Below are positions 26,817 through 43,074 of a stretch of 43,120 nt of DNA, one piece after another. Source of the DNA: Selenomonadales bacterium OttesenSCG-928-I06 (lineage in GTDB: Bacteria > Bacillota > Negativicutes > Sporomusales > Sporomusaceae); contig JAJDHX010000007.1 of assembly GCA_030266395.1 (NCBI GenBank), positions 1-43,120 on the forward strand, written 5' to 3'. Below the pieces are notes generated by a model, which did not search any database, was not told the origin of the DNA, and was given only the letters and a program-made list of their open reading frames with translations. How positions within the stretch are numbered: position 1 is the first letter of the stretch; every line of letters starts with the position of its first letter. A program made the position numbers and the translations under genes.

Positions 26817-28079
26817 TTAAAGCACTTTTTGCAGACCAAAATAATTATGGGTTCTTCTTGCTCTTTCTTTATCTCTTGTTGTCTGACCTATTAAGAACAA
26901 GTCATCATCAAGCTCAAACTTGGCACGAGCTTTATATTTAACATCATTAGGATCATATAAATCAAAAGAAAGCTGTAATTTATCTATAACTTTATAGTCA
27001 AGACCCACTCCAAACTTACTTTCTATTACGCCTATTCTTTGTGCCCAATTTGGATAACCTCTACCATATTGCAGATTAAAATTATTATCTTCTCCAATAT
27101 CAGAAACTCCTATAATCGCAAAAGATGGTGAATTATCTTTCATGACTTTAAGATAAATATTACCTACATAATCTCTTGCTGTTGCATCATATAGAAATTC
27201 TAATTCCGTAGATGTTTTAATAGCATTTATTTGAGTAAGTGTTTTATTTGCTTTTTCAGAAACATCTTTAGCATTTTTAATTGTTGCTTTTAAGCTATCT
27301 ACAGTTTCAGGATCTGTAGTTACATCTTCTAAAGAAGCAGCAATTTTTTCTACTCTTTGACTAATTATTTTTATATTTTCTACTGTTTCTACTAAGTCAG
27401 CAGCTGTTTTTCCATTATTATCAATTCCTTGAGAAACTGATCTGAGAGATTCTGCCATTAAGCTAAGATTAACAACCAGTTCATTTATTCTAGATTCGTT
27501 ATTTTGAGCTAAACCATCTAGAGTTGCAGTTAAATTCTTTAGATTTTCTGTAAGTTCTTTTGAATTTAAAGCACTGTCTCTTAAAGCTCCTTTTACTTTT
27601 TCATCTCCAAAAACATCTTCTAAAGACTTAATAAGTCCTCTCATTTGTTTTAGAGCTGATGTCGCCTCAGAAAACAGTTCATCTAAATTTTGAGGATCAA
27701 TACCATTAACATATTCATTAGGCTGTATCGAGCCTGTATCACCAGGACTGGCAGGTGGTTTAATACTTACATACTGTTCTCCCATCAAACCAGCAGAATT
27801 TATAGTAAAAGAAGCACCTTTAGGGATTTGAACTTTTTTATCTATTGATAATTCTACCTCTACACCTTCTGGTACTATCTTAATCGCCTTAACTTTTCCT
27901 ATTTTAACACCGGCATAATTTACTGCATTACCAGGTATCAGTCCGTTAATTTGTTTAAAAACAGCCTTAACTGGATACCCTTTTTCAGCAAAAGTTACTC
28001 CGCTTAAATATAAGACGATTAATGTCGTCAATATAATGCCTATAAGAGCTGTAGCGCCCACTTTAGCTTCACTACTCAT
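26817..28079 (-). CDS. mlaD: MlaD-type MCE protein, elongated with C-terminal beta domain
   Basis: Binds phospholipid and links the MlaE/MlaF transporter to the rest of the path. A membrane anchor (about 9-29) and one MCE domain (about 35-110, with VNYAGVKIGKVKAI and INSAGLMGEQYVSI) are followed by a long helical part (about 120-290) and a beta-rich C-terminus (about 290-420: FGVGLDYKVIDKLQLSFDLY, KARAKFELDDDLFLIGQTT). At 420 residues it is more than twice E. coli MlaD. The Veillonella parvula MlaD has the same plan and is modelled as a trans-envelope bridge ending in an OM barrel, consistent with the lack of MlaA and MlaC here. AGGAGG lies nine bases before the ATG. Confidence 0.92.
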   Translation of the reverse strand: MSSEAKVGATALIGIILTTLIVLYLSGVTFAEKGYPVKAVFKQINGLIPGNAVNYAGVKIGKVKAIKIVPEGVEVELSIDKKVQIPKGASFTINSAGLMGEQYVSIKPPASPGDTGSIQPNEYVNGIDPQNLDELFSEATSALKQMRGLIKSLEDVFGDEKVKGALRDSALNSKELTENLKNLTATLDGLAQNNESRINELVVNLSLMAESLRSVSQGIDNNGKTAADLVETVENIKIISQRVEKIAASLEDVTTDPETVDSLKATIKNAKDVSEKANKTLTQINAIKTSTELEFLYDATARDYVGNIYLKVMKDNSPSFAIIGVSDIGEDNNFNLQYGRGYPNWAQRIGVIESKFGVGLDYKVIDKLQLSFDLYDPNDVKYKARAKFELDDDLFLIGQTTRDKERARRTHNYFGLQKVL

Positions 28080-28115
28080 CGACTTTAACCTCCTTAATCC
28101 AGATTTAAGCGTTTA

Positions 28116-28952
28116 TCATGTTACAAACCCATTAATAAAGTTTTTAACAACAGGGTTTTCAGATTTTTTCACTTCTTCAGGAGTTCCCATTATGACAAAA
28201 CTTCCTTCATGAAGCATTGCAATTCTATCAGAAATTGTGAAAGCACTTTTTATATCATGAGTTACAACTACCGCTGTGGCTTGTATTGCTTTTTTTGTGC
28301 TTACAATAAGTTCATCTATCACTTTTGAATTTATCGGATCAAGCCCTGATGTTGGTTCATCATAAAGCACAATTTGAGGATCAATTGCTATAGCCCTGGC
28401 AAGCCCTACCCTCTTTTTCATTCCTCCAGAAAGAGTATTCGGCATATTATCTTCAATCCCTTTTAAATCAACAAGACCTAATTTTTCCGTTACTATTTCT
28501 TTTATAACCGATTCATCTAAATCAGTATGTTCTTTCAGACCAAAAGCAACATTATCGCCAATACTCATTGAATCAAAGAGAGCTGAATATTGGAAAACCA
28601 TCCCCATTTTGAGACGAATTTCATTTAAATCATCTTCATGAATCATTGTTATATTTTTACCATCTATCCAGATTTGACCAGAAGTTGGTTTTAATAAGCC
28701 TATAATAAGTTTTAAAAGAGTACTTTTACCAGAACCACTGCTTCCTATAATTACTAATATTTCTCCTCTTTTTACTGTTAAATTAATATCTTTTAATATA
28801 TATCTGCCATCAAGTTCAACACTTACATCTACAAGCTTTACCATATCTTCTTTGGCTTTTGCAACCATTTCTTGATTAATAGCATCAAACTCTTTGAATA
28901 CAGCCTTTTTATCTTCACTATTCTCAGATTTTGAGATAAATTCTTTATTCAT
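28116..28952 (-). CDS. mlaF: Mla phospholipid transporter ATP-binding protein
   Basis: Drives MlaE. The ABC domain starts near residue 37 (MVKLVDVSVELDGRYIL), with Walker A GSSGSGKST, Q-loop MVFQYSALF, signature LSGGMKKRVGLARA (the KKR after SGGM is typical of MlaF/TTG2A-type ATPases), Walker B IVLYDEPTSGLDP and H-loop VVTHD. The first ~36 residues are a charged extension not usual in MlaF; a shorter start at the in-frame ATG at residue 37 is possible, but AGAGAGG lies before the ATG at 28952. Gaps to mlaE and mlaD are 32 and 36 bases, so the three form one unit. Confidence 0.93.
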   Translation of the reverse strand: MNKEFISKSENSEDKKAVFKEFDAINQEMVAKAKEDMVKLVDVSVELDGRYILKDINLTVKRGEILVIIGSSGSGKSTLLKLIIGLLKPTSGQIWIDGKNITMIHEDDLNEIRLKMGMVFQYSALFDSMSIGDNVAFGLKEHTDLDESVIKEIVTEKLGLVDLKGIEDNMPNTLSGGMKKRVGLARAIAIDPQIVLYDEPTSGLDPINSKVIDELIVSTKKAIQATAVVVTHDIKSAFTISDRIAMLHEGSFVIMGTPEEVKKSENPVVKNFINGFVT

Positions 28953-28984
28953 GAGATTCCTCTCTTTCTATTAACAACACCAAC

Positions 28985-29749
28985 TCAATATAATAAAGCT
29001 GATAATATACAATTAAAGAAGAATATTAAGATGATTGAAAGCACTACAGATTCAGTAGTAGCAGTACCTACACCTTCAGCACCTTCAGCAGTATTTAGTC
29101 CTTTATGGCAACCAACAATGGCAATAATAGCTCCAAAAAAACAAGCCTTTATCATCCCGCCAGTTATGTCATGTGGAACAACGAAAACTTTTATTGAATT
29201 TATAAACATTTGCGTTGTAATAGAATCATAAAAGGTAGTTATAATATAACTGCCTATAATTCCTATAACATTAGCAAAAACTACTAATATAGGACACATA
29301 ATGATACAAGCAATAAGTCTTGGTACAACTAAATAAGCAACAGGATTAACTGCCATAACTCTTAAAGCATCAATTTGTTCGGTTACTTTCATTGAGCCAA
29401 GCTCTGCTGTAATTGCAGCGCCAACCCTGCCTGCCATAACAACTCCGGTTAAAACAGGAGCAAGTTCTCTGCCCATAGCAATTGTAACAATTCCTCCTAC
29501 TGTCGATTGGGCACCATATTTAATAAACTCTTGTGCAGTTTGGATTGTAATAACTACACCTGTAAAAAATATAGTTAAAAGAACAATAGGCAGTGAATCA
29601 ACACCTAAATGTGCCATTTGCTTTACAAGTCTTTTAATATCTAAAAAACGCAATCTTTTTATGGTATCTATAGTTAACAATACGAGTTGCCCAAACAACT
29701 CTAATTTTTGAAATATTAAATTTCCTATACCAGATAATATTGAGAGCAT
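28985..29749 (-). CDS. mlaE: Mla phospholipid transporter permease
   Basis: MlaE/TTG2B-family permease (254 residues, family norm ~260) with five or so membrane segments. Recognisable family blocks: VDSLPIVLLTIFFTGVVITIQ, FIKYGAQSTVGGIVTIAMGRELAPVLTGVVMAGRVGAAITAELGSMKVTEQIDAL, and the C-terminal GCHKGLNTAEGAEGVGTATTESVV. It forms the membrane channel of the MlaEFD complex that moves phospholipid between membranes. It is the first gene of the long minus-strand envelope locus. AAGGAGC lies before the ATG at 29749. I found no convincing promoter in the 452-base divergent region upstream. Confidence 0.95.
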   Translation of the reverse strand: MLSILSGIGNLIFQKLELFGQLVLLTIDTIKRLRFLDIKRLVKQMAHLGVDSLPIVLLTIFFTGVVITIQTAQEFIKYGAQSTVGGIVTIAMGRELAPVLTGVVMAGRVGAAITAELGSMKVTEQIDALRVMAVNPVAYLVVPRLIACIIMCPILVVFANVIGIIGSYIITTFYDSITTQMFINSIKVFVVPHDITGGMIKACFFGAIIAIVGCHKGLNTAEGAEGVGTATTESVVLSIILIFFFNCILSALLY

Positions 29750-34442: not shown

Positions 34443-34527
34443 GAAGTTTATCCTGCCTTACTTTTTAACAAAAAGTAAACTATTATTTAACAATAAATAA
34501 AATCTTTATTTAGCAGGATAAACTTCT
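34443..34527 (-). terminator. Nested terminator overlapping the end of btuF
   Basis: AGAAGTTTATCCTGC (34443-34457) is perfectly inverted as GCAGGATAAACTTCT (34513-34527). The second arm is the end of the btuF coding sequence, and the intervening bases contain another perfect stem (TTACTTTTT/AAAAAGTAA). On the minus strand the outer stem is followed by TTTTATTG. It closes the B12 operon and separates it from the macA group. Confidence 0.65.
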
Positions 34528-35450
34528 CTTATTATATTTTCCACAGCAAAAACAACATATTGAGATGTAGCATAAGTATATTTACTGTCTATTTTTATGA
34601 AACTTCTGTTCTTTACTGCATTTACAGTTTTCAGGGCAGAATCATTTGAAATTTCTTCTTCTAAATTATTATAACTGTCATCCTCGTAAGCCCAAGTAGA
34701 AATCATTATAACATCTGGATTAACACTTACAAGCTGTTCTTTACTTAAATACCCATCTTTGCTGATACCTAATAAAGATGCACCATTTATAACAAATGAA
34801 TTCTTATATATATCATCCAGCATACTGCCTGTGCCGCCATAACAGCCCATAGGTGATAAAGCAATTATAGTTTTTCTTTCTTTTACCGGAATATCTTTAA
34901 CCTTGTTTTGACAATTGCTTAATCTAAGCTCCATATCTCTAACAAGTTCTTTGCCTTTAGCCAAAGAATCTACTGCTTGGCTTAAATCTATTATCAATCC
35001 CTTAACTTCTTCTATAGTATCAGGAGTTTTATAAACATAAACATTAAGTCCAATTTCTTCTAAGATTTTGATTAAATCTTGGCTATGCCAATCTGCAGCA
35101 ATTATGATATCGGGTTTTAAGGAAATAATTGTTTCTGCATTTTGATTAGGAAGTTTAAAAACAGCTTTGCTTTCTTCTACTATATTAGATATTCCTGCAT
35201 CTTTTGAGAGATTAGTAAAAGCGACTATCCTATCTTTGGAAACAAGTTCAAGTAATATTTCATCACTACATAAAGTTAATGAAACAATTCTAACAGGAGG
35301 ATTATTTAGTTTTATTACTTTACCTCTGCTATCTGTTACTTTATACTGCCCCTCCTGAGGAGTAATTGCATTTTTACTGCAACCACTTAAGAGCAAGCTA
35401 AAACAAATTATTGCAGCTAGTATTAATACTAACCTGTTTTTCAAATACAT
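34506..35450 (-). CDS. btuF: Corrinoid (vitamin B12)-type ABC transporter substrate-binding lipoprotein
   Basis: A 314-residue type III periplasmic binding protein. The signal peptide ends in the lipobox LLSGC (Cys24), so it is a lipoprotein. The N-terminal lobe (about 55-165: RIVSLTLCSDEILLEL, ETIISLKPDIIIAADWHSQ) and C-terminal lobe (about 185-314: KTIIALSPMGCYGGTGSMLDDI) are joined by a long helix, as in BtuF/FecB. BtuF and siderophore-binding proteins are hard to tell apart, but this gene belongs to an operon headed by a cobalamin riboswitch. It starts three bases after the TIM-barrel gene with GAGGTG upstream, and is the last gene of the operon. Confidence 0.82.
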   Translation of the reverse strand: MYLKNRLVLILAAIICFSLLLSGCSKNAITPQEGQYKVTDSRGKVIKLNNPPVRIVSLTLCSDEILLELVSKDRIVAFTNLSKDAGISNIVEESKAVFKLPNQNAETIISLKPDIIIAADWHSQDLIKILEEIGLNVYVYKTPDTIEEVKGLIIDLSQAVDSLAKGKELVRDMELRLSNCQNKVKDIPVKERKTIIALSPMGCYGGTGSMLDDIYKNSFVINGASLLGISKDGYLSKEQLVSVNPDVIMISTWAYEDDSYNNLEEEISNDSALKTVNAVKNRSFIKIDSKYTYATSQYVVFAVENIIREVYPAK

Positions 35451-35453
35451 CTC

Positions 35454-36407
35454 TCACCTCAGTGCTTCTTTTTGAATACTAAGTTTCTCTTGCCAGTCTT
35501 CTTTAGTAATTTGAACAATTTCATGTACTAAAAACTCTGGCTGTATCATTTCTACAATCTCTTTTACTCTTTTTGTTTCAAACGGCAGATGTCTGTCTAT
35601 TTTCAAAATATGTGAAATTATTTCAAACTCTTTTTTAAAAAAAGGATTCTCTTTTTGAACTTGTCTAATATAATCTCCAGAAAGCGAATAATGAAGATGT
35701 ATGCCTTTAATATATTTTTTATATTCTCCTAAATTCTCAACTGTATTTAATATATAAGTAACTGCTTCATCTTGATTTTTTAAATCCAGATTAGTACTTA
35801 ATAAATGACCAGTATCCAGCATTATTCCTTTGTTTTCGTGCTTTATATTATCAAGAAAAATGCCTGTTAAATTTTTATCAAGCAAAGTCAAGCCTGGCCA
35901 CCACAAATTTTCAAATAAAACAGTCATATCTTCGGGAATATATTTTAAAAGTTTATTGAAAAATTCAATAAATGCTGTCATTACTTCCTTGTCACCATAT
36001 CTAAAATTAAAATTGACAACTTCATCTCTTCTGGCATTACTTACATGAAAAACTACATATTCAGCTCCAGCATCCACTGCTAAAGCAATATTATCAGCAA
36101 AAGGCTGCAACATTCCTTTTTTAGTAAATCCATTATAAGTTTTGGCTATCGTATTTTTAGTTTCATAATCTTTTAAAACCTTATCCTCATTACCATACCA
36201 AAAGTCAAGCCAGTTACTATAAAAAGGCAAATGAACCCCTTTTATAAATTCTTTTTTATGAACATCTTTTTCCCATTTATCGCAAAAAAACATCTCAATT
36301 CCATCAAGATTATTTAACTCCAAAAAATCACACAAGTTTTCAGCATTATTATCAAAAAATCTTATATTATCTTCTTTATAATTAGAAAAATTAACTAACT
36401 CTAACAA
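35454..36407 (-). CDS. TIM-barrel metal-dependent enzyme of the AP endonuclease 2/xylose isomerase superfamily; candidate cobamide-remodelling hydrolase CbiR
   Basis: A 317-residue xylose-isomerase-like TIM barrel. Candidate metal ligands and active-site residues lie on successive strands: GVHLPF (His59), VVFHVSN (His121), VLFENLWWPG (Glu166), IMLDTGHL (Asp198, His201), GIHLHYS (His237, His239) and LVHEI (Glu296). Members include AP endonuclease IV, sugar isomerases and CbiR, the cobamide-remodelling enzyme first described in Akkermansia muciniphila, which cuts the nucleotide loop of cobamides. Its place between tonB and btuF in a cobalamin-riboswitch operon makes CbiR the best guess; this is inference from context. 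A sugar-phosphate isomerase remains possible. It begins six bases after the tonB stop. Confidence 0.7.
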   Translation of the reverse strand: MLELVNFSNYKEDNIRFFDNNAENLCDFLELNNLDGIEMFFCDKWEKDVHKKEFIKGVHLPFYSNWLDFWYGNEDKVLKDYETKNTIAKTYNGFTKKGMLQPFADNIALAVDAGAEYVVFHVSNARRDEVVNFNFRYGDKEVMTAFIEFFNKLLKYIPEDMTVLFENLWWPGLTLLDKNLTGIFLDNIKHENKGIMLDTGHLLSTNLDLKNQDEAVTYILNTVENLGEYKKYIKGIHLHYSLSGDYIRQVQKENPFFKKEFEIISHILKIDRHLPFETKRVKEIVEMIQPEFLVHEIVQITKEDWQEKLSIQKEALR

Positions 36408-36413
36408 TACATA

Positions 36414-37082
36414 TCAACCCTTTAAAATAAAATCTACTGGAATATTATAATAATACACCACGGCTTCTCCTGATGCATTTCTGGCAGGAGAAAATCGCCA
36501 CTTATATATAGCTTTTACAGCTTCTTCATCAAACTGAGAATATCCGCTTGATTCTGTTATTGTAACTTCATCCGGAATCCCTTTTTTAGAAATTCTAACT
36601 TTCAAGATAACACTTGCCTCAAGCCCTTTATCACGAGCAAATTGAGGATACTTTGGTTTAATTTTCTTTAAAACTTCAGGTTTTGTTACTATATCTGAAC
36701 CACCATCGCCGTTGTTAATTCCGGCTCCGGAGACTCTATCATTATTAGATGATGAACCTTCAATACTTGTACTGTTTGCCAAATTGCCTACTATATTACC
36801 AGCTGCATTTGAAATAAAACCATTGCTTTTTATATTATTAACTGAAACAGGTTTATTGTTTTCATCAGCAGAGACTTTCCTGATATCATTATCAAGTCTT
36901 AAATTAGCAGCATTCGTAGCTCCTGCCGCTAAAGAAGGTTTTTGATCATCAAGCAAATAAACTTGAATCTGATTTAAATTTTCCTGATAAAATGCTTCAT
37001 TTCTAATGACTGTTCCTAAAAAAACAAAAATGAATAAATGAAAAATCACTGAAATAAGGATCGCTTTATGCCATCTCTCCAT
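36414..37082 (-). CDS. tonB: TonB energy transducer
   Basis: Carries proton-motive energy from ExbB/ExbD to the OM receptor. From the ATG at 37082 (MERWHKAILISVIFHLFIFV), with AAGGAG upstream, it has 222 residues: an N-terminal membrane helix (about 5-25), a Ser/Asn/Gly-rich periplasmic spacer (about 50-140) and the TonB C-terminal domain (about 145-222: IKPKYPQFARDKGLEASVIL, ESSGYSQFDEEAVKAIYKWRF). The spacer has few Pro-Lys/Pro-Glu repeats, unlike E. coli TonB. A frame extending to 37148 overlaps exbD and is not used. It follows exbD by four bases. Confidence 0.92.
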   Translation of the reverse strand: MERWHKAILISVIFHLFIFVFLGTVIRNEAFYQENLNQIQVYLLDDQKPSLAAGATNAANLRLDNDIRKVSADENNKPVSVNNIKSNGFISNAAGNIVGNLANSTSIEGSSSNNDRVSGAGINNGDGGSDIVTKPEVLKKIKPKYPQFARDKGLEASVILKVRISKKGIPDEVTITESSGYSQFDEEAVKAIYKWRFSPARNASGEAVVYYYNIPVDFILKG

Positions 37083-37086
37083 TATT

Positions 37087-37497
37087 TCAATCTCCTTTTT
37101 TCCTAGTAGCAAGTGCAATTTTATTAACTTTAGCACTTCTAAGCTCATCTAAAACAGCTACAACAGTTTTATATGGAATATTTTCATCTGCGTTTAAAAC
37201 AAATACTGTTTCTTTGTTATTTTGCGATTCTATTAAAGCTTTATTTTTTAAAAGGTTAAGAGGTATTTCCTCATTCCCAAACACAATATTGCCATTAGCA
37301 AGAACAGAAATATTGACATTAGTCCCCATTTCTATTTCATATGTCGCTGTTTGTGGTAAATTTAGAGATATAGACCGCTGTTCGACCATATATAATGTGC
37401 TTAGCATAAAAAAGACCAAAAGAAAGAATATTATGTCGATCATCGGAATAATCATCAGTTTCGGTTTTCTTTCGTTTCTGAGATTACTTAGTTTCAT
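37087..37497 (-). CDS. exbD: Biopolymer transport protein ExbD
   Basis: A single-pass inner-membrane protein of the TonB motor. The membrane helix IPMIDIIFFLLVFFMLSTLY contains the conserved proton-path Asp21; the C-terminal periplasmic domain (about 45-136) has the usual NADENIPYKTVVAVLDELRSA block. The ATG at 37497 is six bases after GAGG; an ATG at 37503 touches the ribosome site, so the inner one is preferred (136 residues). The start lies inside the end of exbB (14-base overlap), indicating coupled translation. Confidence 0.93.
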   Translation of the reverse strand: MKLSNLRNERKPKLMIIPMIDIIFFLLVFFMLSTLYMVEQRSISLNLPQTATYEIEMGTNVNISVLANGNIVFGNEEIPLNLLKNKALIESQNNKETVFVLNADENIPYKTVVAVLDELRSAKVNKIALATRKKGD

Positions 37498-38119
37498 AAT
37501 CATCCTCTTTTACTGGTTTATTTATAAATACTATGCCGACCTCTTCCAACAAAGTGATAACCTTGTCTACTTTATGGTTGAAATAGCTGTAGAAAAACAT
37601 AGCCAGTACTGCCACACAAAGCCCAAAAGCTGTTGCAATTAATGCTTCTGCTACTCCATCAGCAATTTTAAGAGGTTCACCACTTTTAACATTCATGATA
37701 TTGAAAGCTTGTATCATACCAATTACTGTACCTAAAAGCCCTAATAACGGTGCAATTGTAACTATTGTTTCCAGATGAGTCAAATTTTCTCTTAGCTTTG
37801 CAATACTTATGGCAGCCTGACTTTCAAAAACTTCTTTATACATATTATAATTGTTTTTCATTGTAGATATTGTAGTGTAAATAACACTTGCTACAATATT
37901 TTTGTTTCCTTCACACATTTTCTCAGCTAAATCTAATTGATTTGTTTTTATTAAATATTTTACCTCTTCAACAAAAACCAAATCATTTACCTTAACATTT
38001 TTGTAATAATTATACCTTTCTACTGCTATTGCTATAACTATTATAGAACATAGCAAAATAAGATACATAACCGGACCGCCTGCTTTAAATATGAAAAAAT
38101 ATTCTTTAATAAAATCCAT
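37484..38119 (-). CDS. exbB: Biopolymer transport protein ExbB (MotA/TolQ/ExbB family)
   Basis: A 211-residue proton-channel subunit with three membrane segments (VMYLILLCSIIVIAIAVERY, LETIVTIAPLLGLLGTVIGMIQAF, and IADGVAEALIATAFGLCVAVLAMFFYSYF). LLGLLGTV and the GVAEALIATAFGL stretch are family signatures. Given the B12 operon context it would energise BtuB through TonB. The 259-base gap upstream separates it from btuD, so it may also be expressed from its own start point. GAGGAAT lies before the ATG at 38119. Confidence 0.93.
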   Translation of the reverse strand: MDFIKEYFFIFKAGGPVMYLILLCSIIVIAIAVERYNYYKNVKVNDLVFVEEVKYLIKTNQLDLAEKMCEGNKNIVASVIYTTISTMKNNYNMYKEVFESQAAISIAKLRENLTHLETIVTIAPLLGLLGTVIGMIQAFNIMNVKSGEPLKIADGVAEALIATAFGLCVAVLAMFFYSYFNHKVDKVITLLEEVGIVFINKPVKEDDYETK

Positions 38120-38378: not shown

Positions 38379-39623
38379 TTACGTGTTTTGCAAAAAATGT
38401 TCTATTTTTATTAAAAATTTCTTTAAATTCCATACTTCAACATTATCTCTGGCAACTAAGTCTCTATATAATTTCACAGCTTCACCATTAGTAAAATCAC
38501 GGTTTTCGATGTCGTCATCTTCAATAATAATCAATTTTTTTGCCTGAAAAGCATCTTTTAAATTACTAATATTTTGCATAGTAAATTTCAAATTCCCTAA
38601 AACTGTTAGATCTGCTGCTTGTATTTTTTCTATATTTTGCCTGCTCATTTCAGCACTAATTTCAGCACTAATTTCTTTGAGACAATCTATTTGAAATGCC
38701 TTTAAAACAAGATAATCTATAGTATCTTCAAAAATAACTCCTGCACTTAAAGAACACCCTAATTCATATAAAACATTTACCAGACCACTTAAAGTATCGC
38801 CACTGCCAATAAGATGCACTTTCTTGTTGATTTGAAAATTCTTTTTCAAATATGTATGTATAGCTAAATCACCTGTAATTTTATTAGGATAAACTATTGA
38901 ATCCAGATTAAATGCTTTTCTTAAATATTCTTTTGTTATAACTTCTGCAGGAGTTCCATCTGCAATGATACTGCCTTTATTTAAAAGAATTAATCTAGAG
39001 CAAAATTTAGCGGCAATTTCTAAATCATGTACAACTACTAAAATTGTTTTACCTAGTTTACAAATAGAATGCAAATAATTAAACACCTCTTCTTGATAAG
39101 ATAAATCAAGATCAGATATTGGTTCATCCAGATAAATTATTTTAGTTTCCTGAGTAAGTATTTTTGCTAATAAAACTCTTTTTCGCTCGCCACCAGAAAC
39201 TTGATTGATTTTTCTATCTTTCAATTCTTCTACATCTGCAAATTCAAGATATTTAGCTGCTATTTCTTTATCTTCTTTTTGCTCATGTTGCCACCAAGCA
39301 AGATAAGGATATCTGCCCATAAGAACTATATCCAAAACAGAATATCCAAAAGAAATTTGAAGATCTTGCTGCATATAAGCAACATGTTTAGCAAATTCTT
39401 TTTCTTTATATAAACTTATATCTTTATTAAATAATTTTACTGTTCCTGAAAAATCTTTTTCTTGATTGGCTAAACTCCTAAGAAGTGTACTTTTGCCAGC
39501 ACCATTTGCACCTATGATACCTATAAATTCTCCTTCTTTTACACTAATGTTTATATTTTCCAAGATTTCTCTGTTTTGTTTTTTCACAGCTAAGTCTTTA
39601 ACATTTAAAATCTCTTTATTCAT
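38379..39623 (-). CDS. btuD: Corrinoid ABC transporter ATP-binding protein with an extra C-terminal domain
   Basis: The first ~255 residues are a BtuD/FecE-type ATPase: Walker A GANGAGKST (38-46), Q-loop MQQDLQISFGYSV, signature VSGGERKRV, Walker B IIYLDEPISDLD, H-loop VVHDLE. The remaining ~160 residues form an added domain with a Rossmann-like start (KVHLIGSGDTLSGLVNVLYELGCSLSAGVIF) and later AADLTVLGNLKFTM and KLIIIEDDD. Long BtuD proteins with such an extension are known in some archaea and bacteria, but its role is not established. The ATG directly abuts the btuC stop. A 12-base tandem duplication within the extension encodes EISA twice. Confidence 0.85.
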   Translation of the reverse strand: MNKEILNVKDLAVKKQNREILENINISVKEGEFIGIIGANGAGKSTLLRSLANQEKDFSGTVKLFNKDISLYKEKEFAKHVAYMQQDLQISFGYSVLDIVLMGRYPYLAWWQHEQKEDKEIAAKYLEFADVEELKDRKINQVSGGERKRVLLAKILTQETKIIYLDEPISDLDLSYQEEVFNYLHSICKLGKTILVVVHDLEIAAKFCSRLILLNKGSIIADGTPAEVITKEYLRKAFNLDSIVYPNKITGDLAIHTYLKKNFQINKKVHLIGSGDTLSGLVNVLYELGCSLSAGVIFEDTIDYLVLKAFQIDCLKEISAEISAEMSRQNIEKIQAADLTVLGNLKFTMQNISNLKDAFQAKKLIIIEDDDIENRDFTNGEAVKLYRDLVARDNVEVWNLKKFLIKIEHFLQNT

Positions 39624-40646
39624 CTAAAACAAGCCCTCCTTTTGTGCTCGTTTTAAAAGATAGAGAAAATATGGGGCACCTATTAAAGCAGTAGTAATAC
39701 CTACTCTAAGCTCCATAGGCGCAATAACTACTCTGCTTAAAATATCACACAACAGTAAGAATACTGCTCCAAACAAAGCACTTGAAGGTAACAAAAGTCT
39801 ATGTTCAGGTCCTAAAATAAGCCTCATTATGTGAGGTACCACAAGTCCCACAAACCCTATGCTGCCACTTACCGAAACAGCCGCAGCAGTAGTAAAAGAA
39901 GCTATAAACAGCAATAACAATCTTAACTTAAAAACAGGCACACCTATTGCCGCTGCCTCAGTTTCTCCCATTGATAAAACATTAATATGTCTTGCTAATA
40001 AACAAAGCATTGTAATTCCAATTATAATTGGCGGAAATGCCAGATATACATGTTCCCAGCGTCTATAATCCAAGCCACCGACTGTCCAAAATAAAAATTC
40101 TCTAATATTATGTTCATTGGTAAATGTCAAAATGCCTGAAGTAATTGCAGCTATAAAAATACTGACACTTACCCCTGCCAAAAGAAGCATCATTGGAGGA
40201 ATTTTCTTATCTTTCATTGCCAGAAATATAGTTAAAGAAACACTAAGCAAAGCAAAAAGAAAAGCCAGCATAGGCATATAAAACATGCCATATGCAGTAA
40301 GACCGGTAACTATAGCAATTACAGCACCTAAAGAAGCTCCGCTGGAAAGACCTATTAAACTTGGATCTGCCAAAGGATTGCTAAATAAACCTTGCATTAC
40401 TGCCCCGGTTATAGCAAGTGCTGCCCCAGCTAAAATTGCAATTAAAGCTCTGGGTATTCTGATATTATAAAGCACTGCCGCCTGTTCTTCAGTCAGCACG
40501 TTAATTTCTGAAGTTAGACCAAAAAAATTAGTAAATGCTAAAAAAGTTGTTTTAACAGGTATGTCCATCTGTCCTAGACATAAAGAAACAACAAAGCTCA
40601 CCATAAGTAATAATATTAAAATTATAAAAACAACTTTTTTAGTCAT
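39624..40646 (-). CDS. btuC: Corrinoid ABC transporter permease, FecCD/BtuC family
   Basis: A 340-residue permease with about ten hydrophobic segments. Family blocks: RIPRALIAILAGAALAITGAVMQGLFSNPLADPSLIGLSSGASLGA, GVSVSIFIAAITSGI, FWTVGGLDYRRWEHV, and SVSGSIGFVGLVVPHIMRLILGPEHR near the C-terminus, the last being the coupling region that contacts the ATPase. Siderophore permeases have the same blocks; the assignment to corrinoids comes from the riboswitch and the neighbouring btuB/btuF. It lies 85 bases after btuB, with AAGGAAAG before the ATG at 40646. Confidence 0.87.
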   Translation of the reverse strand: MTKKVVFIILILLLMVSFVVSLCLGQMDIPVKTTFLAFTNFFGLTSEINVLTEEQAAVLYNIRIPRALIAILAGAALAITGAVMQGLFSNPLADPSLIGLSSGASLGAVIAIVTGLTAYGMFYMPMLAFLFALLSVSLTIFLAMKDKKIPPMMLLLAGVSVSIFIAAITSGILTFTNEHNIREFLFWTVGGLDYRRWEHVYLAFPPIIIGITMLCLLARHINVLSMGETEAAAIGVPVFKLRLLLLFIASFTTAAAVSVSGSIGFVGLVVPHIMRLILGPEHRLLLPSSALFGAVFLLLCDILSRVVIAPMELRVGITTALIGAPYFLYLLKRAQKEGLF

Positions 40647-40731: not shown

Positions 40732-42672
40732 TTAGAAACTGCATTTTACACCTATCTGATAATTTCTGCCAGGAGCACTCCACCAATCTCCGGGCCCACC
40801 ACCATAAGGACCAACATTAGAAAATTCAGCATAATATTTATCAAAAATATTATTAACTCTTACAAACAATGTTGCGTGTTTATCTACTTTAAAGTTTGCA
40901 GCTACATCACATACCCAATATGTATCTGTCGGATATATTTTATCAGTGCCGTTTTTCGCACCTGGTTTATCTATGATCCCTCTGCCAATTAAGGATACAT
41001 CATATTTTTCTTTTTCAAATGTAAAAGCAATATTCCACATTCCCTTAGGAATAAGGCCATTTATATTTTCTGCAGTTGTTTTATAGCTATCAATTTTTGT
41101 GTATGTATATCCCACAAATCCTGAAATTTTATCAGAAAATCTTTTGTTTAGGCTTACACTAAATCCTTTGGCATCTTCTTCAGTGATATTATCATATTTA
41201 TTTGTAACAAAATTATAGCCAACCACATTTTCAGAATCTCTTTTAAAGAAATTTAAATTAGCAGTAAATGAATCATTAAATTTATGATTTAAACCAATTT
41301 CTACATTATGACCATCTTCTGCTTTAAGTCTTTGATTGCCATAACTGCTATAAAGTTGATACGCATTAGGGGCAACAAAAAACTCTTTATAAGCAACATA
41401 GTAATTTGTTTTATCATTTGCCTTGTAACCAAGATTAATACTTGGCGAAGATTCTGTGCCATAAAGGGAATGATTATCTGTTCTTACCCCATAAGTCAGG
41501 GTGAATTTTTTGCCTATTTTCCAATCATCTTGAATATAAAAGGCTCTATTTGTATTATTTTTATCACCAAATCTATCCCAACTGTCATCATAATTTTTGA
41601 TTTTATCTTCATTAAAATCAAAGCCACCAATAATAATGTGTTTATCATTAGGTCTATAATCTAATTGAACTTGTACACCACGAGACTCTAAATCCATTAG
41701 CCAGCGGCTAAAAGCTATATTTGTTTTATCATCATTGTATTCATTTTTATTTCTATATAAAGATAGCTTTGCTAAAAATTTATCGTTTATCTTTTGATTA
41801 TAAATTAAACTGACTCTATCATAATCCAAACTGCCTTTAATTCTTTTGCCGCTATTCCAGCCGCGACTGCTATCTGTCCGGTCATAGTCTCCTTCATATC
41901 TTTGATAAAACAAACTTAAATCTGTACCTTCGCTAAATTCTTGAGTTAGTTTCAGATTTATTGATTCTGTATTGTTGCGAGAAATAACCCTTTTGCCATG
42001 ACCATCTTTATAATCTCCTGACAGCGATTTTTGTCCACTCAAAAACCAACTGAATTTGTTTTCTGTTCCTTGAGTATAAATTTTATAATTTTCATAATTA
42101 TTATTACCGCCTGCTATGGAAAAAGAAGTCTTTTTGTCTGGGCTCTTTTTAGTAATTAAGTTTATTACGCCGCCTTTAGCATCAGAACCGTAAAGAGTAG
42201 AAGCAGCACCTTTTAATATTTCTATTTTTTCGATTCCATCAAGGTCTACATATTGCTCAAAAGGAAAACCATTACCACCATTATCAACTGTAACACGAAC
42301 CCCATCTATCAAAAAAACCACTTGATTAGTCCCTTGAATATAAAGTCTATTAGTTATATTTCCAGAAGCATATTTGCTGATATTGACACCAGGCACGTCT
42401 CTTAAAACTTGCTCTAAATTTTCATAGTTTCTCTGTTCTATTTCTTCTTTAGTAACTATAGTGATATCTGCCTTGGTTTCATGTCTGTTTACTTCTGTCT
42501 TTGTTGCAGTAACAACTACTCTATCTAAGGTAGACTCAGAAACATTACTGGCTGATACCTCTAATTTAACAGTCTCATTGCTTTGGTCATCTGCAGGTTC
42601 TTCTGCATAAACAACAGTTGTTGTAAGCAAAGAAGAGATAGCTAAATATAACAATATTTGTTTTTTTGTCAT
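40732..42672 (-). CDS. btuB: TonB-dependent vitamin B12 (corrinoid) outer-membrane receptor
   Basis: A 646-residue TonB-dependent receptor. Signal peptide 1-23 (ending VVYA); a TonB-box region with LDRVVVTATK (49-58); plug domain about 60-185 (ADITIVTKEEIEQRNYENLE, DVPGVNISKY, FLIDGVRV, EKIEILKGAASTLYGSDAKGG); a 22-strand barrel to a terminal Phe (YQIGVKCSF). The length is near E. coli BtuB (614). The cobalamin riboswitch immediately upstream supports B12 over iron. GAGGGAG lies before the ATG at 42672. A perfect stem GTAAATAG/CTATTTAC (42720-42740) lies between the leader terminator and the gene. Confidence 0.9.
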   Translation of the reverse strand: MTKKQILLYLAISSLLTTTVVYAEEPADDQSNETVKLEVSASNVSESTLDRVVVTATKTEVNRHETKADITIVTKEEIEQRNYENLEQVLRDVPGVNISKYASGNITNRLYIQGTNQVVFLIDGVRVTVDNGGNGFPFEQYVDLDGIEKIEILKGAASTLYGSDAKGGVINLITKKSPDKKTSFSIAGGNNNYENYKIYTQGTENKFSWFLSGQKSLSGDYKDGHGKRVISRNNTESINLKLTQEFSEGTDLSLFYQRYEGDYDRTDSSRGWNSGKRIKGSLDYDRVSLIYNQKINDKFLAKLSLYRNKNEYNDDKTNIAFSRWLMDLESRGVQVQLDYRPNDKHIIIGGFDFNEDKIKNYDDSWDRFGDKNNTNRAFYIQDDWKIGKKFTLTYGVRTDNHSLYGTESSPSINLGYKANDKTNYYVAYKEFFVAPNAYQLYSSYGNQRLKAEDGHNVEIGLNHKFNDSFTANLNFFKRDSENVVGYNFVTNKYDNITEEDAKGFSVSLNKRFSDKISGFVGYTYTKIDSYKTTAENINGLIPKGMWNIAFTFEKEKYDVSLIGRGIIDKPGAKNGTDKIYPTDTYWVCDVAANFKVDKHATLFVRVNNIFDKYYAEFSNVGPYGGGPGDWWSAPGRNYQIGVKCSF

Positions 42673-42829: not shown

Positions 42830-43010
42830 CGTAGGTCTAACGGTGATTATCAAACAGGCAGTTCTCCTGGCTCTAGGTCATCGCTCCTCTACGCCTTCCC
42901 AAGAGTTTATCTCCCAGTGACATAAATGTAGATTTGCTCGCTATTACAGTGGCGGGACCGCGTCGGCTTCAAACCGAACTTCCCTATTAAGTCTTAAAAG
43001 ACACCTGCTT
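42830..43010 (-). promoter_or_regulatory. Cobalamin riboswitch controlling the B12 uptake operon
   Basis: Read on the minus strand the conserved elements occur in order: AGGTGTC at the 5' end (about 43005), GCCACTG (42947-42953), GGGAAGGC (42893-42900) and the B12 box GAGCCAGGAGAACTGCC (42857-42873), which differs from the usual form only by AC in place of CC. Binding of adenosylcobalamin or a related corrinoid would turn off btuB and the genes after it. The boundaries are approximate. Confidence 0.93.
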
Positions 43011-43045
43011 TTTACTATTCAATTTTAGATAATAACTGACAATTA

Positions 43046-43074
43046 ATTTTAACATTTATAAAAATATGTGTCAA
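43046..43074 (-). promoter_or_regulatory. Promoter of the B12 uptake operon
   Basis: Minus strand -35 TTGACA (43069-43074), 17-base spacer, -10 TAAAAT (43046-43051). The predicted start is near 43038, some 28 bases before the riboswitch. Nearly consensus, and the best promoter in the window. Confidence 0.75.

Follow-up and report, generated by a model that had tools for sequence, protein, structure and literature searches.

CbiR, a member of the AP-endonuclease-2 superfamily described from Akkermansia muciniphila, converts a cobamide to cobinamide-phosphate and an alpha-riboside, and 80% of its homologues adjoin biosynthesis genes while 25% adjoin transporters (PMC7733943). CblS has been described as an alpha-ribazole kinase, the role of CblT has been described likewise, and a tandem cobT pair (the arsAB pattern), which serves to activate phenolic lower ligands, occurs almost exclusively in Negativicutes (PMC6461909). 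Both the superfamily and the idea that one of its members opens cobamides are already known, and forecasts of microbial B12-analogue use rest on detecting the remodelling enzymes CbiZ and CbiR. Here we characterise a different family of the superfamily, family X, starting from one gene in a 43,120-nucleotide stretch of DNA, the whole of which we refer to as the window. The gene stands in the following set, given in the order of transcription:

43046..43074, minus strand: promoter-like site TTGACA-N17-TAAAAT (11/12 in a consensus scan), just upstream of the riboswitch
42840..43023, minus strand: cobalamin riboswitch RF00174 at the head of the operon (full-length Rfam match, 104.5 bits, E 2.9e-25)
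40732..42672, minus strand: btuB-like TonB-dependent outer-membrane receptor (PF00593/PF07715; best NCBIfam match TIGR01779 TonB-B12, 229 bits, below the cut-off of 599.7)
39624..40646, minus strand: btuC-like FecCD permease (PF01032, 331 bits; best NCBIfam match BtuC, 277 bits, below cut-off)
38379..39623, minus strand: btuD-like ABC ATPase with a C-terminal extension (PF00005; best NCBIfam match PRK09536 corrinoid ABC ATPase, 257 bits, below cut-off)
37484..38119, minus strand: exbB-like proton channel (PF01618)
37087..37503, minus strand: exbD-like gene (PF02472)
36414..37148, minus strand: tonB-like gene (PF03544)
35454..36407, minus strand: family X TIM barrel, candidate cobamide nucleotide-loop phosphodiesterase (317 aa; PF01261, 40.3 bits)
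34506..35450, minus strand: btuF-like lipoprotein, putative periplasmic corrinoid-binding protein (PF01497)

The family X ORF is intact, running from a TTG start at 36407 to a stop at 35454; an AAAGGG sits a few bases 5' of the start, and orthologues share the start residue with the window protein (MLxLVNxSNY). The plus strand over the same interval has no open frame and carries stops throughout. The gene is tightly packed, with tonB ending 6 nt before it and btuF beginning 3 nt after it. The genes from the promoter-like site to btuF are likely to form one transcript, although a second promoter is possible because the 259-nt gap between btuD and exbB has room for one. Promoter-like matches in the region are in total no more numerous than in shuffled sequence, and the operon's site is distinguished by its place and strength alone; terminator scans of the operon region gave nothing above chance. 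The riboswitch, together with the best matches of BtuB, BtuC, BtuD and BtuF to B12 families, all below the NCBIfam equivalog cut-offs, points to B12 as the substrate of the importer. The original prediction of a TIM barrel between tonB and btuF in a B12 uptake operon is therefore borne out. Elsewhere in the window, at 26817-29749, genes for an MCE protein, an ATPase and a permease, named from their translations, resemble an Mla-like lipid transport operon, which fits a diderm Bacillota (Negativicutes) host.

We propose that family X is probably a metal-dependent phosphodiesterase of the cobamide nucleotide loop that is coupled to uptake and works like CbiR. Co-produced with the B12 importer, this AP-endonuclease-2 superfamily protein would act in the cytoplasm as a metal-dependent hydrolase and would meet complete cobamides once they are imported. 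Its endonuclease-IV-like multi-metal site would hydrolyse the phosphodiester of the nucleotide loop, yielding cobinamide-phosphate and an alpha-riboside, the same products as with CbiR. Another lower ligand, itself activated by CobT or by a tandem CobT pair of the ArsAB type, would next be joined on by CobU and CobS. Genomes with a CblS-like kinase would be able to re-phosphorylate the alpha-riboside set free. What the sequences show directly is the gene with its operon and riboswitch, the clade that the family forms, the conservation of its ligands, and neighbourhoods that tie it to cobamide uptake and to activation of the lower ligand; the cytoplasmic place, the number of metals, the bond cleaved, the products and the net remodelling are all points that we infer.

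Family X matches were found in 36 of 61 related genomes, one of them a short fragment and most at 36-52% identity, and in 26 of the 41 relatives with completeness of 90% or more and contamination of no more than 5%. A profile search added members in other Bacillota families, and tblastn located the family in Fusobacterium vincentii (32%) and Acetoanaerobium noterae (26%), in neither of which a recognised cobamide gene lies near it. The range comprises Negativicutes-like genomes, other Bacillota and Fusobacterium, the window's class being taken for Negativicutes from its traits, namely diderm Bacillota that have BtuB/TonB and tandem cobT; no member was found in the viral contigs searched.

A corrinoid-uptake or corrinoid-metabolism gene lies on the same strand at most three genes away in 29 of the 37 X loci of the window's class, where btuF, btuC and btuD are named by top BLAST hit and some of these hits are weak ones to iron-type relatives of these transporters. 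The neighbours in this class are btuB, btuC, btuD, btuF, CobA/BtuR, CbiZ, CbiK, CobN, nitrogenase-like genes, MCM and MeaB, as well as exbBD-tonB. A cobalamin riboswitch is located within about 9 kb of X in 31 of the 46 loci scanned, sometimes directly before it. Quite different arrangements occur as well. Five genomes (family f68) share the order ThiC paralogue(s) (bzaA-bzaB), cobT, ECF S component, AIRS-domain protein, X, and in four of the five a cobalamin riboswitch immediately precedes the first ThiC gene; this order was confirmed with Pfam in the two members scanned (L138 and L137) and assigned by size and gene order in the other three. L138 has two ThiC paralogues whose best NCBIfam match, below cut-off, is BzaB, and one was scanned in L137. 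Judged by domain and neighbourhood, the AIRS-domain protein beside X looks like a CblS-like alpha-ribazole kinase, and the ECF S component, by domain and position, looks CblT-like. A CblS-like neighbour would fit a CbiR-type reaction, since the substrate of CblS is the nucleoside which that reaction releases. In a further family (f126) the order is DUF4430, CbiQ, X, PF01902, ECF AA'S, with cobT-cobU-cobS elsewhere in the genome. In genome G363, X follows a cobalamin riboswitch and adjoins btuFCD-CbiZ-CobN, and in G034 it adjoins and overlaps a cobC-like gene.

At the level of whole genomes, CbiZ is found in 20 of 36 X-bearing relatives compared with 6 of 25 other relatives. CobS is uninformative among the 41 good relatives, since every one of them has it whether X is there or not; across the wider phylum, 16 of 17 further X-bearing Bacillota have it, compared with about 60% of the remaining genomes sampled. 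The counts of neighbourhoods, riboswitches and co-occurrence are all uncorrected for shared ancestry, and more weight falls on how varied the contexts are: the link of X to cobamide genes recurs across several unrelated ones. The original prediction had asked whether homologues co-occur with riboswitches and with cobC, cobS and cobT elsewhere; there are riboswitches near 31 loci, cobT in the f68 operon, the cobC-like neighbour in G034 and CobS in nearly all further X-bearing Bacillota. The functional linkage of X to cobamide genes is stronger than is visible from the window alone.

Several X loci carry neighbours of other kinds. Nitrogenase-like NifD/K- and NifH-type genes occur with B12 genes near X in L041, L042, L043, L051, L052 and L126, several of them behind cobalamin riboswitches; a CobN-like gene is also present in L126, and CobN-like and ChlI-like genes in L052. 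The f126 operon, which is B12-importer-like, has a diphthamide-synthase-like ATPase (PF01902; L135:9754-10395) between X and the ECF transporter. Family f96 (L128:9764-10639, L129) has X between an ARMT1-like (DUF89) damage-control phosphatase gene, which comes before it, and genes for an FMN oxidoreductase and a 3H-domain regulator, which come after it. In L044, L046, L050, L053 and L054, HATPase anti-sigma-like, STAS-like and SpoIIE/PAS genes lie in a row 3' of X, followed in four of the five by a chemotaxis receptor gene.

The same neighbourhoods bear on whether X might be a phosphomonoesterase or another hydrolase of lower-ligand assembly, for instance of alpha-ribazole-5'-phosphate or cobamide-5'-phosphate as in CobC, and not a cobamide opener. 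A multi-metal site of this superfamily is capable of hydrolysing phosphate esters, X is the last gene after bzaA-bzaB-cobT-ECF S-AIRS in one family, and it overlaps a cobC-like gene in one genome. However, where the cobS region of an X-bearing genome was read, cobS/cobD are mostly accompanied by a histidine phosphatase gene of cobC type. X itself is most often placed in an importer operon, where complete cobamides arrive, and CbiZ, another breaker of the nucleotide loop, is a frequent neighbour. We therefore consider such a role unlikely; that X replaces CobC was likewise judged unlikely, given the cobC-like gene by cobS/cobD in X-bearing genomes.

The candidate metal ligands of family X are well preserved. 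All nine of H59, H121, E166, D198, H201, H237, D271, H273 and E296 are present in 52 of 56 members. The original prediction had named most of these: His59, His121, Glu166, Asp198, His201, His237 and Glu296 stand, each conserved in 52-56 of the 56 homologues, but His239 was rejected as a ligand (conserved in only 42/56), and the DxH pair Asp271 (56/56) and His273 (53/56) had been missed. Endonuclease IV hydrolyses phosphodiesters with nine such residues holding three metals, while the isomerases of PF01261 have fewer ligands, of a four-ligand type. Six of the nine family X ligands fall in the same alignment columns as ligands of endonuclease IV; D271, H273 and E296 were paired with the DxH and the last-strand Glu of endonuclease IV by motif and order, as the profile alignment fails there. 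Because the ligand set is of the endonuclease IV type and not of the isomerase type, it favours family X being a hydrolase rather than a sugar isomerase. The four exceptions to the nine-ligand set come from three genomes of the window's family and are paralogues that lack both H121 and E296 and, for the most part, E166 and H273 as well:

L070:8964-9962: ligand-losing family X paralogue
L071:9216-10214: ligand-losing family X paralogue
L073:8894-9889: ligand-losing family X paralogue
L075:9160-10182: ligand-losing family X paralogue

These paralogues are possibly non-catalytic corrinoid proteins. Two of the four adjoin CobN, radical-SAM and CN-hydrolase genes.

Family X could also carry out some other chemistry on cobamides or corrinoids (isomerisation, epimerisation, cleavage of another bond or repair) that is neither CbiR-like nor CobC-like. 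Its clade is long-stemmed and has no characterised member, its neighbours are varied and include CobN, nitrogenase-like, radical-SAM and ARMT1-like proteins, and the four paralogues that lack the metal site keep the fold, some of them beside CobN. On the other hand, the candidate ligands make up the larger set typical of endonuclease IV and not the four-ligand set of the isomerases, which makes this alternative rather improbable in our view.

As to family membership, the window protein scores 40.3 bits against Pfam AP_endonuc_2 (PF01261; cut-off 31.1) and so belongs to the superfamily, as do distant family X members, which likewise exceed the cut-off. It passes no family cut-off in NCBIfam. 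The curated CbiR model (NF041277; cut-off 105 bits, 249 positions) does not match it, nor does it match the orthologues in L138 and L126; the orthologues that do match score about 18 bits (18.7 bits for L068). The sole match to NF041277 in the window's genome is an endonuclease IV on another contig (26.7 bits). Among 399 Bacillota genomes two proteins pass the cut-off, L076 (153.9 bits) and L077 (107 bits), and these serve as the CbiR references throughout, standing in for Akkermansia CbiR; a search of genome contigs with a CbiR alignment, aimed at Akkermansia, found one Clostridia MAG alone, and a search of plasmids found none. Against the curated deoxyribonuclease IV model the window protein reaches 13.6 bits (cut-off 315), and no curated isomerase or epimerase model of NCBIfam matches it at E 0.1. 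In profile-profile comparisons family X matches endonuclease IV at E 2.4e-9 and CbiR at E 3.5e-5 (E 9.5e-5 in an earlier comparison with other alignments); weak profile matches of the family include IolI and tagatose epimerase (E 0.006-0.02) as well as endonuclease IV. A single-sequence AlphaFold model of the window protein had a pLDDT of 40 and was discarded. Family X appears to be without a name in Pfam or NCBIfam beyond the superfamily level, and we found no description of it in B12 contexts in the open-access papers searched.

In a superfamily tree of 60 rows, computed in quick mode, all family X sequences group in one clade (SH-aLRT 100) on a long stem. The clade contains no characterised member and lies apart from every CbiR, endonuclease IV and other barrel sampled; the tree does not fix the deep branching order. 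A firm place among sugar isomerases, the outcome that the original prediction had set against itself, was not found. AU tests did not reject X and CbiR as one clade (p 0.33 without L076, 0.50 with L076), and the two may be sisters. Taken together, the window protein is not supported as a recognisable CbiR: of the label CbiR-like, the contexts and ligands uphold a cobamide-related, probably metal-dependent and uptake-coupled enzyme of the superfamily, but membership of CbiR itself is not supported: the window protein has no match to NF041277 and the family forms its own clade, although the AU tests allow that clade to be sister to CbiR.

Family X might nevertheless be a highly diverged true CbiR by descent, a reading that overlaps with a CbiR-like function. 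The AU tests do not reject such a clade, and the motifs HLP, ENL, DxGH and HLH are visible in both families; yet NF041277 leaves the window protein unmatched and gives matching orthologues scores far below its cut-off, and endonuclease IV is a closer profile match to X than CbiR is. We give this descent a small chance. That X is an ordinary sugar isomerase/epimerase or DNA-repair enzyme lying in a B12 operon by chance, as the Pfam label of a xylose-isomerase-like barrel and the weak matches to IolI, tagatose epimerase and endonuclease IV might suggest, is very improbable, since the linkage to cobamide genes is repeated in unrelated contexts, the window's genome encodes its own typical endonuclease IV separately (on contig C39) and the tree puts X within neither group.

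Whether the window organism remodels cobamides was a further claim of the original prediction, and here the record is mixed. Its genome (1.33 Mb, 72% complete) has one cobalamin riboswitch, that of the operon. Two adjacent cobT homologues (L210:4851-6697; G000 C39), the second of them short (274 aa), show the arsAB pattern and speak for the claim. On the other side, cobS, cobU, cbiB, cbiP, cbiZ, CobA and MCM were not found in this incomplete genome. In relatives cobS, cobU, cbiB and cbiP lie in one cluster, so that the absence of these four can be explained by a single missing contig. With the tandem cobT in view, it is plausible that the organism remodels cobamides, towards a phenolyl cobamide.

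More tentatively, and with doubt outweighing confidence, family X may represent a second uptake-coupled lineage of cobamide opening that arose independently of CbiR and is spread over Negativicutes, other Bacillota and Fusobacteria. It would be paired with an alpha-ribazole kinase in some lineages, such that both halves of the cofactor are recovered, and some paralogues without the metal site would now be non-catalytic corrinoid proteins in CobN/radical-SAM operons. If X does open cobamides, the curated CbiR model overlooks a remodelling step in most sampled Negativicutes and in several other Bacillota. The family is a directly testable candidate in culturable organisms.

Compared with known systems, family X resembles CbiR (Amuc_1679; PMC7733943) in belonging to the AP-endonuclease-2 superfamily, in its conserved His/Asp/Glu ligands and in the placing of its genes with cobamide genes, and the same reaction is predicted for it. 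It differs from CbiR in forming a separate clade, in its greater length (about 317 aa compared with the 249-position model), in its motifs (WLDFWRGD, LFENLWWPGLTL, LDTGHLMNTN, HLHxSLSGxY, KIDxHxPF and LVHEF), in being encoded mainly in importer operons and in that its reaction is a predicted one. With the sugar isomerases and epimerases of PF01261 (IolI, tagatose 3-epimerase) it shares the fold and the E/D/H/E core, but it has extra ligand positions and the cobamide linkage. Endonuclease IV (Nfo) is its best profile-profile match, with six ligand columns in common and three more by motif, although the gene neighbourhood and the clade are different. Finally, CbiZ, an amidohydrolase of an unrelated family that breaks a different bond (an amide, to give cobyric acid), resembles X as proposed here in being a remodelling enzyme that breaks the nucleotide loop; it is commonly encoded beside corrinoid transporters, and it often adjoins X itself.
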